From NCBI RefSeq assembly GCF_900129575.1, contig NZ_FQWE01000007.1:62001-126000 (forward strand): a DNA stretch of 64,000 nucleotides. Reading direction: 5' to 3'. A program made the translations under genes and the position numbers. Source of the stretch: Flavobacterium segetis. Its GTDB lineage: Bacteria; Bacteroidota; Bacteroidia; Flavobacteriales; Flavobacteriaceae. The notes beneath the pieces are model-generated. The model had not been told where the DNA came from and ran no database searches. It saw only the letters and a list, made by a program, of their open reading frames with translations. How positions within the stretch are numbered: the first letter of the stretch is position 1; each line of letters opens with the position of its first letter. Positions 13,034 to 57,254 of the stretch are shown piece after piece.

Positions 13034-13170
13034 ATTGATAAAAATAGCGAAAGCAAAAAAAAAAAATATAATTGAATACAATAGTGCAATAAGATGAAGT
13101 ACAAATAAAGCGCATCTAACATCAGGAATGTTTTTCACCTGAAATAGCTACCTATACTCCTAAAAAAAAA

Positions 13171-15420: not shown

Positions 15421-15473
15421 AGGTAGAGATTATGAATTCAGGTCATATCCTTCGATAATCGTGTATTCTACCT
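15421..15473 (-). promoter_or_regulatory. Hairpin in the rpsK-rpsD intercistronic gap
   Basis: AGGTAGA at 15421-15427 pairs with TCTACCT at 15467-15473, and GATTAT at 15428-15433 pairs with ATAATC at 15455-15460. On the mRNA this gives two stacked helices separated by a six-base bulge on one side. It lies directly upstream of rpsD, with no run of U, so it is not a terminator. A role in S4 feedback control or in processing is inferred from position only. Confidence 0.5.
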
Positions 15474-55188: not shown

Positions 55189-56460
55189 TTATTGTATTGC
55201 TTTAACCAATACTTTATCAATCTTCACGCCGTCCATATCGATTACTTCCAACACAAATTTTTGCCACACTAACTTTTCTCCTTGTTTTGGAATACGAGAG
55301 AGTTCAGTCATTATTAAACCACTAACCGTGGTTACTTCATAATCATTTATCAATTCATCTAGTTCAAAATACGTTAAGAAATCGTGCAATGAATAATGAC
55401 CATCAACCAGCCATGTTCCATCTTCACGTTCTACCAATTGAAAATCATCTTTATAAAAATCAGACGCATCTCCAACTAAGGCTTCTAGAATATCATTTAA
55501 AGTTATCACTCCCTGAAAAACTCCGTATTCATCAGACACAAAGGCGTAATGAATTCCCGATTTCTTAAAATTTTCAAGTGCCACATAAGCAGTTGTTTGC
55601 TCCATCATAAAAGGAGCTTCGGTCATTATATCAGCTAAATTGAAATTATCATTGTCAAAATTAGCAAAAATATTCTTCAAGTTTACAACACCTACAATAT
55701 CATCATAATTGCCATTATATACAGGATATATCGAATGTAATTCCTCCAGCATAAACTTTTTTACCTCCTCTTTGTTCGCATAAAGAGGTAAAAATATAAC
55801 CGACTTTCTATGGGTCATTAAAGAATTTATTTTTCGATCTCCAATATGAAAAACGCGCTCTACAATATCTTGTTCGATTTCCTGAACTTCACCGCCTTCT
55901 GTTCCTTCCTTAATGATTGCTTTTATTTCCTCTTCAGTAACACGGCCATCAGCGGTGGGTTTTATCCGTAAAATATCCAATAGAAATTCAGTTGATTGAG
56001 TTAGCAACCAAATAAAAGGTGCTGTTACTATGGAAACTATTTTCATAGGCATTGCAACTGCTTTAGCAATAGCTTCAGGATGATTTAATCCTATCCTTTT
56101 AGGTAATAATTCTCCTAGAACTAGTGAGAAAAAAGTCAATATAACCACTACTAAACCAACAGCAACAGCTGGAGCGTAAGGTTTTAAAATGTCAAAACCT
56201 TGTATAAACGTCTGCACATCCGTGGTTATCTTGTCACCACTATAAATACCTGTAAGAATCCCTATTAAAGTAATTCCTATTTGTACGGTTGACAAAAATT
56301 TATTAGGCGAGTTTGCCAAATCCAATGCGATTTTCGCACTTTTATTTCCTTTTTTAGCCGCTGTTTCTAATCTATTTTTTCGTGCTGAAATTAAGGCAAT
56401 TTCGGACATGGAGAAAACCCCATTTAGCAGTATCAGAAAAAATATTATTGCTATTTCCAA
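55189..56460 (-). CDS. CNNM/CorC-HlyC family membrane protein
   Basis: 423 residues. N-terminal DUF21 transmembrane region with about four helices (IAIIFFLILLNGVFSMSEIAL onwards), two CBS domains around 205-330 (MTHRKSVIFLPL, DIMTEAPFMMEQTTAYVAL) and a C-terminal CorC_HlyC domain (DGTWLVDGHYSLHDFLTYF). Members are annotated as hemolysins, but magnesium or cobalt transport is the better supported function for relatives. Between obgE and the structured intergenic element. Confidence 0.88.
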   Translation of the reverse strand: MEIAIIFFLILLNGVFSMSEIALISARKNRLETAAKKGNKSAKIALDLANSPNKFLSTVQIGITLIGILTGIYSGDKITTDVQTFIQGFDILKPYAPAVAVGLVVVILTFFSLVLGELLPKRIGLNHPEAIAKAVAMPMKIVSIVTAPFIWLLTQSTEFLLDILRIKPTADGRVTEEEIKAIIKEGTEGGEVQEIEQDIVERVFHIGDRKINSLMTHRKSVIFLPLYANKEEVKKFMLEELHSIYPVYNGNYDDIVGVVNLKNIFANFDNDNFNLADIMTEAPFMMEQTTAYVALENFKKSGIHYAFVSDEYGVFQGVITLNDILEALVGDASDFYKDDFQLVEREDGTWLVDGHYSLHDFLTYFELDELINDYEVTTVSGLIMTELSRIPKQGEKLVWQKFVLEVIDMDGVKIDKVLVKAIQ

Positions 56461-56539: not shown

Positions 56540-56685
56540 TAGCCCAGATGATAGTGGAAAGCCCAGAACTTATAAAACATCATTTTCTTGACAGAAAAGA
56601 GCGACCAGTGGAAGCTCCTTTTATGGCTTAGAAAATAAGTTTTATAAGTGAGGACTTGCAACGAACAGCTGGAAATAGCTGCTAT
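56540..56685 (+). ncRNA. Structured intergenic element, Flavo-1 RNA candidate
   Basis: Between the corC-like start and the adk stop lies a compact set of inverted repeats: TAGC (56540) with GCTA (56681); ACTTATAAAAC (56568-56578) with GTTTTATAAGT (56639-56649); AAAAGAGC with GCTCCTTTT (56595-56621); CAGCT with AGCTG (56666-56681) around GGAAAT. The 5' side (TAGCCCAGATGATAGTGG) and 3' side with AGCTGGAAATAGCTGCTA resemble, from memory, elements common in Flavobacteria and described as Flavo-1 RNA. Orientation is set by that resemblance. The structure is real on paper; the family assignment is uncertain. The 3' end overlaps the adk stop codon. Confidence 0.5.
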
Positions 56686-57254
56686 AAATTATCAATAACT
56701 GCACTCACTCTATCCGTAATTTCTGCAATGGAACCTATTCCGTTTACTGCGTGAAATTTTCCTTGCGCTTGGTAATAATTCATGAGTGGCGCGGTTTTTT
56801 CATTATATTCTTGATAACGATTTCTAATTTTTTCTTCATCTTGATCGTCTATTCTCCCGCTTGTTTTCCCTCTTTCTAATAAACGCTGAATTAAAATTTC
56901 ATCATCGGCTTCAAGTGCAATAGTCGCAGCAACTTTTGAATTTATAGAGGTTAAAAAATTATCTAACGCCTCTGATTGCGACAATGTTCTAGGATAACCG
57001 TCAAACAAAATTCCATTCGTATCTGGATGTTTGTTCACCTCATCAATTAGCATTTTAGTGGTCAATTCATCTGGCACTAAATCTCCTGCATCCATATAAA
57101 CTCTAGCTTGTTTGCCAAGTTGAGTATCGTTTTTTAGATTAAAACGAAATACATCTCCTGTTGAAATATGTGTTAATTTGTATTTTTCTTTAAGAAACTC
57201 GGCTTGTGTACCTTTGCCAGCTCCTGGTTTTCCAAATAAAACAATGTTAGTCAT
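56682..57254 (-). CDS. adk: Adenylate kinase
   Basis: 190 residues, the short-LID form. P-loop FGKPGAGKGT at 7-16, AMP-binding ISTGDVFR and GILFDGYPRTLSQSEAL, and a short LID ERGKTSGRIDDQ without zinc cysteines. Balances AMP, ADP and ATP. Twelve bases after hpt, so both are probably transcribed together from the box at 57821. Confidence 0.97.
   Translation of the reverse strand: MTNIVLFGKPGAGKGTQAEFLKEKYKLTHISTGDVFRFNLKNDTQLGKQARVYMDAGDLVPDELTTKMLIDEVNKHPDTNGILFDGYPRTLSQSEALDNFLTSINSKVAATIALEADDEILIQRLLERGKTSGRIDDQDEEKIRNRYQEYNEKTAPLMNYYQAQGKFHAVNGIGSIAEITDRVSAVIDNL

Follow-up and report, generated by a model that had tools for sequence, protein, structure and literature searches.

Introduction

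A palindromic stretch lies behind the adenylate kinase gene adk in Flavobacterium segetis. The question is what this element is, on which strand its fold is maintained, and whether it serves the gene that it abuts. The window analysed here is a stretch of 64,000 nucleotides of this genome (the source genome; contig NZ_FQWE01000007.1, positions 62,001 to 126,000 of the forward strand), to which all coordinates without a contig or locus label refer. The adk open reading frame lies at 56682-57254 on the minus strand, with its stop codon TAG at 56684-56682. The next gene, an open reading frame at 55189-56460 on the minus strand, encodes a CNNM/CBS-type membrane protein, which we take to be GldE-like; the palindromic stretch lies between the two. 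A preliminary description of the sequence read it as a Flavo-1-like structured RNA and allowed for an antisense or 3' UTR role at adk. Flavo-1 was found as an RNA candidate (PMC2864571) and has been one of unknown function since 2010; three papers in the literature searched mention the name, the passages of them available to us do not treat it as DNA, and Rfam files the family (RF01705) under the type Gene; sRNA.

Fold of the Element in the Window

The whole element spans 56540-56683 on the plus strand, where it fills positions 1-144 of the 144 positions of a covariance model, R1, with 142.1 bits, the copy itself being among the 16 long copies of the source genome from which R1 was built. Its 5' outer arm (56540-56564; plus strand, as for all parts below) starts with TAGCCC and, according to alignments A2 and A3 and the sequence, is made of short helices with loops between them. 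The loop bases on this side are GGA at 56556-56558 and ATA at 56551-56553, the latter in place of the family's G-N-A. The 3' outer arm (56650-56684; same alignments and sequence) carries the loops GCA (56658-56660) and GAA (56663-56665), and its end forms the stop codon of adk. A perfect 11-base stem has its 5' half, ACTTATAAAAC, at 56568-56578 and its 3' half, GTTTTATAAGT, at 56639-56649. The inner module (56583-56635), i.e., the stem 56583-56588/56630-56635 and everything inside it, is what the long form has beyond ordinary Flavo-1. The apical hairpin (56595-56622) bears a conserved tip, GACC-NNN-GGAA, at 56603-56613, with NNN being AGT in the window copy. The perfect stem, the nested helices and their coordinates, as first described, all proved correct when checked against the sequence, as did the overlap with the adk stop codon, which amounts to 2-3 bases.

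The folding energy of the plus strand is -38.5 kcal/mol (z -3.5; 1 of 200 dinucleotide shuffles as good) and that of the minus strand is -45.3 kcal/mol (z -6.2; 0 of 200). By plain energy the adk strand beats the plus strand, though evolution favours the latter. The strong fold of the mRNA strand (z -6.2) would suit a regulator of the abutting gene, here adk, that acts as a 3' UTR or in antisense, either by stabilising the end of the mRNA or by preventing read-through to the following gene. The position of the element fits the same idea: wherever the adk locus is occupied, the element touches or overlaps the stop codon, and it has long been retained there. Nevertheless, we regard such a regulator as improbable in view of the strand and context results given below.

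Relation to Flavo-1

On the plus strand, 56537-56679 matches the Rfam Flavo-1 model at 38.2 bits (E 7.6e-7, for 341 bases searched). The alignment runs through the entire model, 1-76 of 76 positions, and its displayed part shows no flagged non-standard pairs. The match is significant, though it is below the gathering score of 42 bits; therefore a standard scan misses the element, and at the gathering threshold no Flavo-1 is reported in the window. Elsewhere in the window, at 15428-15460 on the minus strand, lies an S4-Flavobacteria ribosomal leader (RF03141, 50.7 bits).

The source genome gives at least 77 Flavo-1 matches at E<=1, at least 54 of them above the cut-off, with the best 150 of 922 candidates scored; the count is thus incomplete, and the window copy is absent among the matches listed. 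Five of 14 control genomes also match at E<=1, none above the cut-off, so the tail of such a list includes chance matches. A BLAST search of the source genome with the window copy returned 41 matches at E<=10, of which 15, besides the window copy itself, were taken as long copies for a 16-copy alignment. The preliminary description had named the joint lack of a model match and of similar genome copies as an outcome against Flavo-1; a match was found and copies are abundant. The proposed identity stands as a family resemblance, the element being a long form with a poor score under the Rfam model.

The long copies combine the Flavo-1 arms with an added inner stem and the conserved apical hairpin. 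In the 16 dispersed copies, 91.2% of the cells in 37 pairs do pair, vs. 72.3% in shuffled alignments, and the value drops to 41-54% when the partners are slid. Both sides have changed in 29 of the 37 pairs (16.2 in shuffles), and cells with a double-sided change number 109 vs. 29.9, none of 500 shuffles reaching as high. Since pairing lies far above both controls, the fold is more than chance. R1, the 144-position model derived from these copies, matches 127 of 149 Flavobacterium genomes, with up to at least 21 matches per genome, and gives 25 matches in the source genome. In other genera of the family, 21 of 118 genomes have R1 matches, mostly 1-6 weak ones, with one rich exception.

Among the matches listed, no member of the 16-copy alignment is above the Flavo-1 cut-off. 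One long copy (C24:48175-48316) passes both the Flavo-1 cut-off (55.1 bits) and R1 (106.7 bits), and R1 also catches matches of short length at lower scores, which makes the long and short forms continuous. The window element shares with RF01705 the outer arms, the short helices with purine-rich loops between them and the many copies in Flavobacterium; it differs in length (144 vs. 76 model positions), in the extra inner stem and in the conserved apical hairpin. The long forms make up a large class below the Rfam cut-off.

The Selected Strand

A folded single strand tolerates a G-T (G-U) pair and not A-C, and on the complement the roles are swapped. Read from fixed ends, with no alignment involved, the arms of 100 type-I short copies hold 43 G-T and 13 A-C pairs (p 7e-5; related rows inflate this and the following p-value), 20 of the 43 in one pair. 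The 61 long copies hold 62 G-T and 12 A-C pairs (p 3e-9), or 43 and 7 minus the 24 adk loci. Their alignment was built with a model that prefers G-U, which leaves the short arms as the cleaner test. By gene context, the ratio in short arms is 12:1 for copies sense to tandem neighbours, 12:4 for antisense copies (p 0.08), 8:4 in divergent gaps and 2:2 in convergent gaps, the asymmetry of the last three classes being weak at these small counts. Long copies outside adk show 26:2 antisense to tandem neighbours, 4:0 sense, 8:1 divergent and 4:1 convergent. A transcription-linked mutation bias should flip with orientation; no flip is seen. In these copies, the wobble pairs indicate selection on the Flavo-1 strand, largely regardless of the direction of the neighbouring genes. 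The apical hairpins of the short copies reveal no wobble asymmetry (35:26). For a 3' UTR regulator, this selection lies on the wrong strand, that opposite to the mRNA, and it does so in antisense copies too (26:2).

The loops of the Flavo-1 strand place G-N-A opposite G-N-A, with the middle base variable. At the four loop sides, G-N-A is found in 55, 58, 61 and 59 of the 61 long copies, and a 2-by-2 loop GA/AA is conserved, its single columns in 59 to 61 of 61. G-N-A also forms the apical triloop in 28 of 61. The window copy deviates with ATA at one loop side and AGT in the triloop. By alignment, the Flavo-1 strand keeps a rod of short helices separated by G-N-A/G-N-A loops. Loops of the G-N-A type are very stable in both DNA and RNA; a literature search found no paper on the G-N-A motif in DNA.

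Covariation that is strand-specific and includes G-U pairs speaks for the main rival, an independently transcribed structured RNA. Here the Flavo-1 strand would be transcribed from unrecognised or distant promoters, and its G-A-rich rod would bind a protein or a small molecule. Discovery and filing as an RNA candidate (PMC2864571; Rfam Gene; sRNA) agree with it. We hold this reading to be unlikely, though deserving of serious weight, given the transcription data that follow.

Gene Context and Transcription

Flavo-1 copies are dispersed, mostly intergenic and present in both orientations. Gene context was taken from simple ORF calling, with copies overlapping an ORF by >30 bases set aside (9 of 76 in the source genome and 9 of 89 in a sister genome, G039; one lies wholly within a 355-residue ORF). 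By this measure, 57 copies of the source genome fall into 39 tandem, 12 divergent and 6 convergent gaps, and 80 copies of G039 into 49, 24 and 7, respectively. The occurrence in all three kinds of gaps alike does not suit a 3' UTR function. The numbers and distribution of copies could suggest a site in duplex DNA, bound by a protein of the nucleoid or of DNA topology, with an incidental palindromic shape. This is very improbable, as the helix sequences change in pairs and the wobble asymmetry requires a folded single strand.

The 120 bases upstream were searched for the flavobacterial promoter consensus, TTG-N17-23-TANNTTTG. On the Flavo-1 strand it precedes 0 of 59 long copies and 4 of 163 short ones, vs. 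2, 2 and 9 of 163 for the three remaining directions. Without enrichment upstream of the folded strand, a promoter of its own for a small RNA is not supported. The 3' flank of the Flavo-1 strand is A-rich, unlike a terminator, and no T-run directly follows the window fold in either direction, which also counts against a 3' UTR regulator. A terminator was rejected as a candidate, and the promoter and terminator expected on the folded strand of a small-RNA gene were not found in these copies. The lack of promoter enrichment and of a T-run likewise weighs against the independently transcribed RNA. So does the placement of the copies, mostly antisense to their tandem neighbours: the antisense:sense ratio is 22:17 for short copies of the source genome, 34:15 for those of G039 and 17:4 for long copies outside adk. 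Finally, in the portions of the F. psychrophilum transcriptome report available to us, Flavo-1 matches are sense or antisense without distinction, showing no consistent strand, and many lie outside transcribed regions (PMC9723704).

The antisense or 3' UTR role for adk that had been allowed for at the outset is not supported. The fold is apparently selected on the strand antisense to adk, copies with other gene surroundings favour that strand too, and neither a promoter nor a terminator pattern was found with it. A preference for one replication strand was also rejected: the copies in G039 split 40 vs. 49 (p 0.40, with the origin set at dnaA and the terminus assumed opposite). By chromosome strand they split 58 vs. 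31 (p 0.006), with no switch at the origin or at the opposite point.

The adk Site Across Species

A search for adk matched 391 of 398 genomes, and the best 29 loci were inspected by eye. The adjacency of adk and the next gene is preserved in the relatives inspected, and a recognisable element sits at the same place in 28 of the 29, some with altered tips or inserts; one is degenerate. In 20 further chosen loci (8 with full-length matches and 12 broken, judged by eye, with model matches for 5), the element is present in 7 (one a short form, one shortened), leaves remnants in 3 and is lacking in 10. The tip varies at this single site: L314 and L328 have it shortened, L336 carries a short form, and L337, L338, L345, L347 and L348 show a different tip.

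A separate collection of 80 named adk loci, overlapping partly in species and titled Flavobacterium with a few Flavobacteriaceae or [Flexibacter], has a model match (E<=0.01, a few of them weak) at the end of adk in 62 and none in 18. In all 62 occupied loci the best match is antisense to adk. Of the 62 occupied loci, 59 end adk with TAG, vs. 4 of the 18 empty ones (Fisher p 1.2e-9, relatedness ignored); hence the element apparently provides the last base of the stop codon. Comparison of these sites has the element present in some species and absent from others, with its border at the stop codon. Mapped on an adk tree with 42 rows, presence requires 5 label changes, and well-supported branches force at least 2. 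A recent insertion was rejected, the element being old at this place. Many adk copies have TA at both borders, together with the TAA/TAG difference; no near-identical pair of an empty and a filled site and no clean target duplication were seen among the loci compared.

At the adk site of several species (L354-L357, L359 and L370), the palindrome ATCCCGATAGCTATCGGGA or a related sequence takes the place of part of one arm.

Arms Stay, Tips Change

G039 is 84% identical to the source genome at the adk locus. For 41 of 76 source sites, G039 has Flavo-1 at the matching place (33 established via both flanks and 8 via one); the comparison covered about one tenth of G039, so the remaining 35 cannot count as empty. 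Over 38 site pairs, median arm identity is 0.84 vs. 0.64 for random pairs. The hairpins of these pairs are <0.5 identical in 14 cases, intermediate in 9 and >=0.7 in 15, with arms and middles cut at fixed lengths so that type II middles contain a few arm bases. A tip of the CACGC-TTTT type occurs in 13 of 87 copies in G039 vs. 1 of 72 in the source genome. One tip at many old sites points to copying between sites and hardly to independent mutation. Site by site, the arms are inherited at fixed places, and the apical hairpins are often replaced.

The gap between the rplQ-like and carA-like genes (named by eye; about 13070-13160 in the window; L150) holds a short Flavo-1 copy in G039 and no Flavo-1 copy in the window. 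As a clean example of an unoccupied short-copy site it was rejected, the alignment being too poor to fix the borders.

A Proposed Folded Strand of DNA and Its Possible Partner

The window contains a long form of Flavo-1. We favour the view, with a probability of roughly 0.45, that the Flavo-1 family is an interspersed DNA element acting as a folded single strand, not a small-RNA gene. The Flavo-1 strand would fold while the DNA is transiently single-stranded. A hypothetical structure-reading nuclease, transposase or recombinase may once have spread the copies and may still exchange their tips. At adk, the element would have inserted long ago into the stop codon, turning TA|A into TAG plus the element, and would then have been tolerated and inherited. 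This reading is weakened in that G-U wobble, G-A loops and covariation suit RNA equally well, and in that long persistence at one place also fits a local function. In addition, the antisense lean of the long copies outside adk (17:4) is not predicted by simple insertion. A bolder and doubtful extension would make Flavo-1 the first known of the strand-specific single-strand-folding DNA elements in Bacteroidetes, with arms inherited vertically at fixed sites, tip cassettes that move between sites, and a putative structure-reading enzyme outside both Y1/RAYT and the integron integrases.

No partner enzyme was found, with Y1 (RAYT) genes as the candidate examined. Flavo-1 could in principle comprise the REP elements of a Y1 (RAYT/TnpA-REP) transposase, perhaps of subclass 2.6 of Bacteroidetes: the available part of one study describes atypical repeats or structures alongside subclass 2.6 genes (PMC6006769), and folded, dispersed, strand-specific elements would follow the same logic. 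Y1 is absent in 6 of 10 genomes without Flavo-1 vs. 31 of 139 with it, a weak association that ignores relatedness. Against this, different hairpins adjoin both Y1 genes of the source genome, and no Rfam match at E<=1 lies within 1.5 kb of either. Flavo-1 is present in 18 of 20 listed genomes without Y1, eleven of which have at least 28 copies, and 4 of the 10 genomes without a Flavo-1 match do carry Y1. Nor is there a GT[AG]G foot as a rule: the foot is mostly TAGCC, and the preceding base is G in 10 of 159 copies. Y1/RAYT as the present-day partner was therefore rejected in its simple form and appears quite improbable overall, the weak association remaining.

A Y1 gene with the look of subclass 2.6 (HLH, YIHDNP) is situated at L062 700-2100 (C19 near 470 kb) between arrays of a different repeat, of the GATAGCGCGGATTTGCAATCCGTGCCC type. 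Another, with the look of subclass 1.2 (YIQNQEEHH), is found at L061 1400-2030 (C14 near 442 kb), flanked by hairpins of the GCTCC-TATGGAGC type; in the part of the literature available, subclass 1.2 is reported to lack typical terminal structures in general (PMC6006769).

Relation to Known Systems

REPINs and REP elements with TnpA-REP (RAYT) are likewise dispersed folded repeats with paired arms and a variable middle. Flavo-1 differs in having no regular GT[AG]G foot and no adjoining Y1 gene in the source genome, and several Flavo-1-rich genomes have no Y1 genes. Integron attC sites are recognised as a folded single strand of DNA, and their terminal structure varies; by their general description, Flavo-1 would share this one-strand logic and the variable end. 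BOX, ERIC and similar repeats are modular, multi-copy and intergenic, with conserved ends; by description, Flavo-1 resembles them in its modular middle between conserved ends, its copy number and its intergenic location. We know of no report of strand-specific selection for these repeats. Among the matches listed in a search of the literature on Flavobacterium MITEs, no paper concerned Flavo-1. The evidence covers strand selection largely regardless of transcription direction, the separate evolution of arms and tips, and the large long-form class below the Rfam cut-off. As far as sequence comparison goes, the evolution of the family suggests that Flavo-1 evolves as DNA folding on one strand with swappable tips rather than as a small RNA gene. 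The findings turn the open Flavo-1 question into a testable one and would change how Flavo-1 "sRNA" annotations are read.

Additional Observations

Two Flavo-1 copies, at the end of L072 (C19:492693-492776) and at the end of L084 (C7:156784-156867), are interrupted by the same sequence at an identical point of the 3' arm, directly at contig ends. The body of this sequence was not found in the assembly, and the one further match to it in the source genome lies inside an unrelated gene. It may be an insertion sequence with Flavo-1 as its target, as REPs are for some insertion sequences according to the portion available of one report (PMC1525189).

A second type of Flavo-1 end, TTGCGTGAGGGAT...AGCCCGACC, leaves the inner architecture unchanged and accounts, by pattern, for 46 of 159 short copies in the source genome and G039. 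In L088, L089, L235 and L240, a Flavo-1 arm or end is swapped for a sequence with AGTTCAGTGAA(C)T or a near form, apparently another repeat grafted onto Flavo-1 copies.
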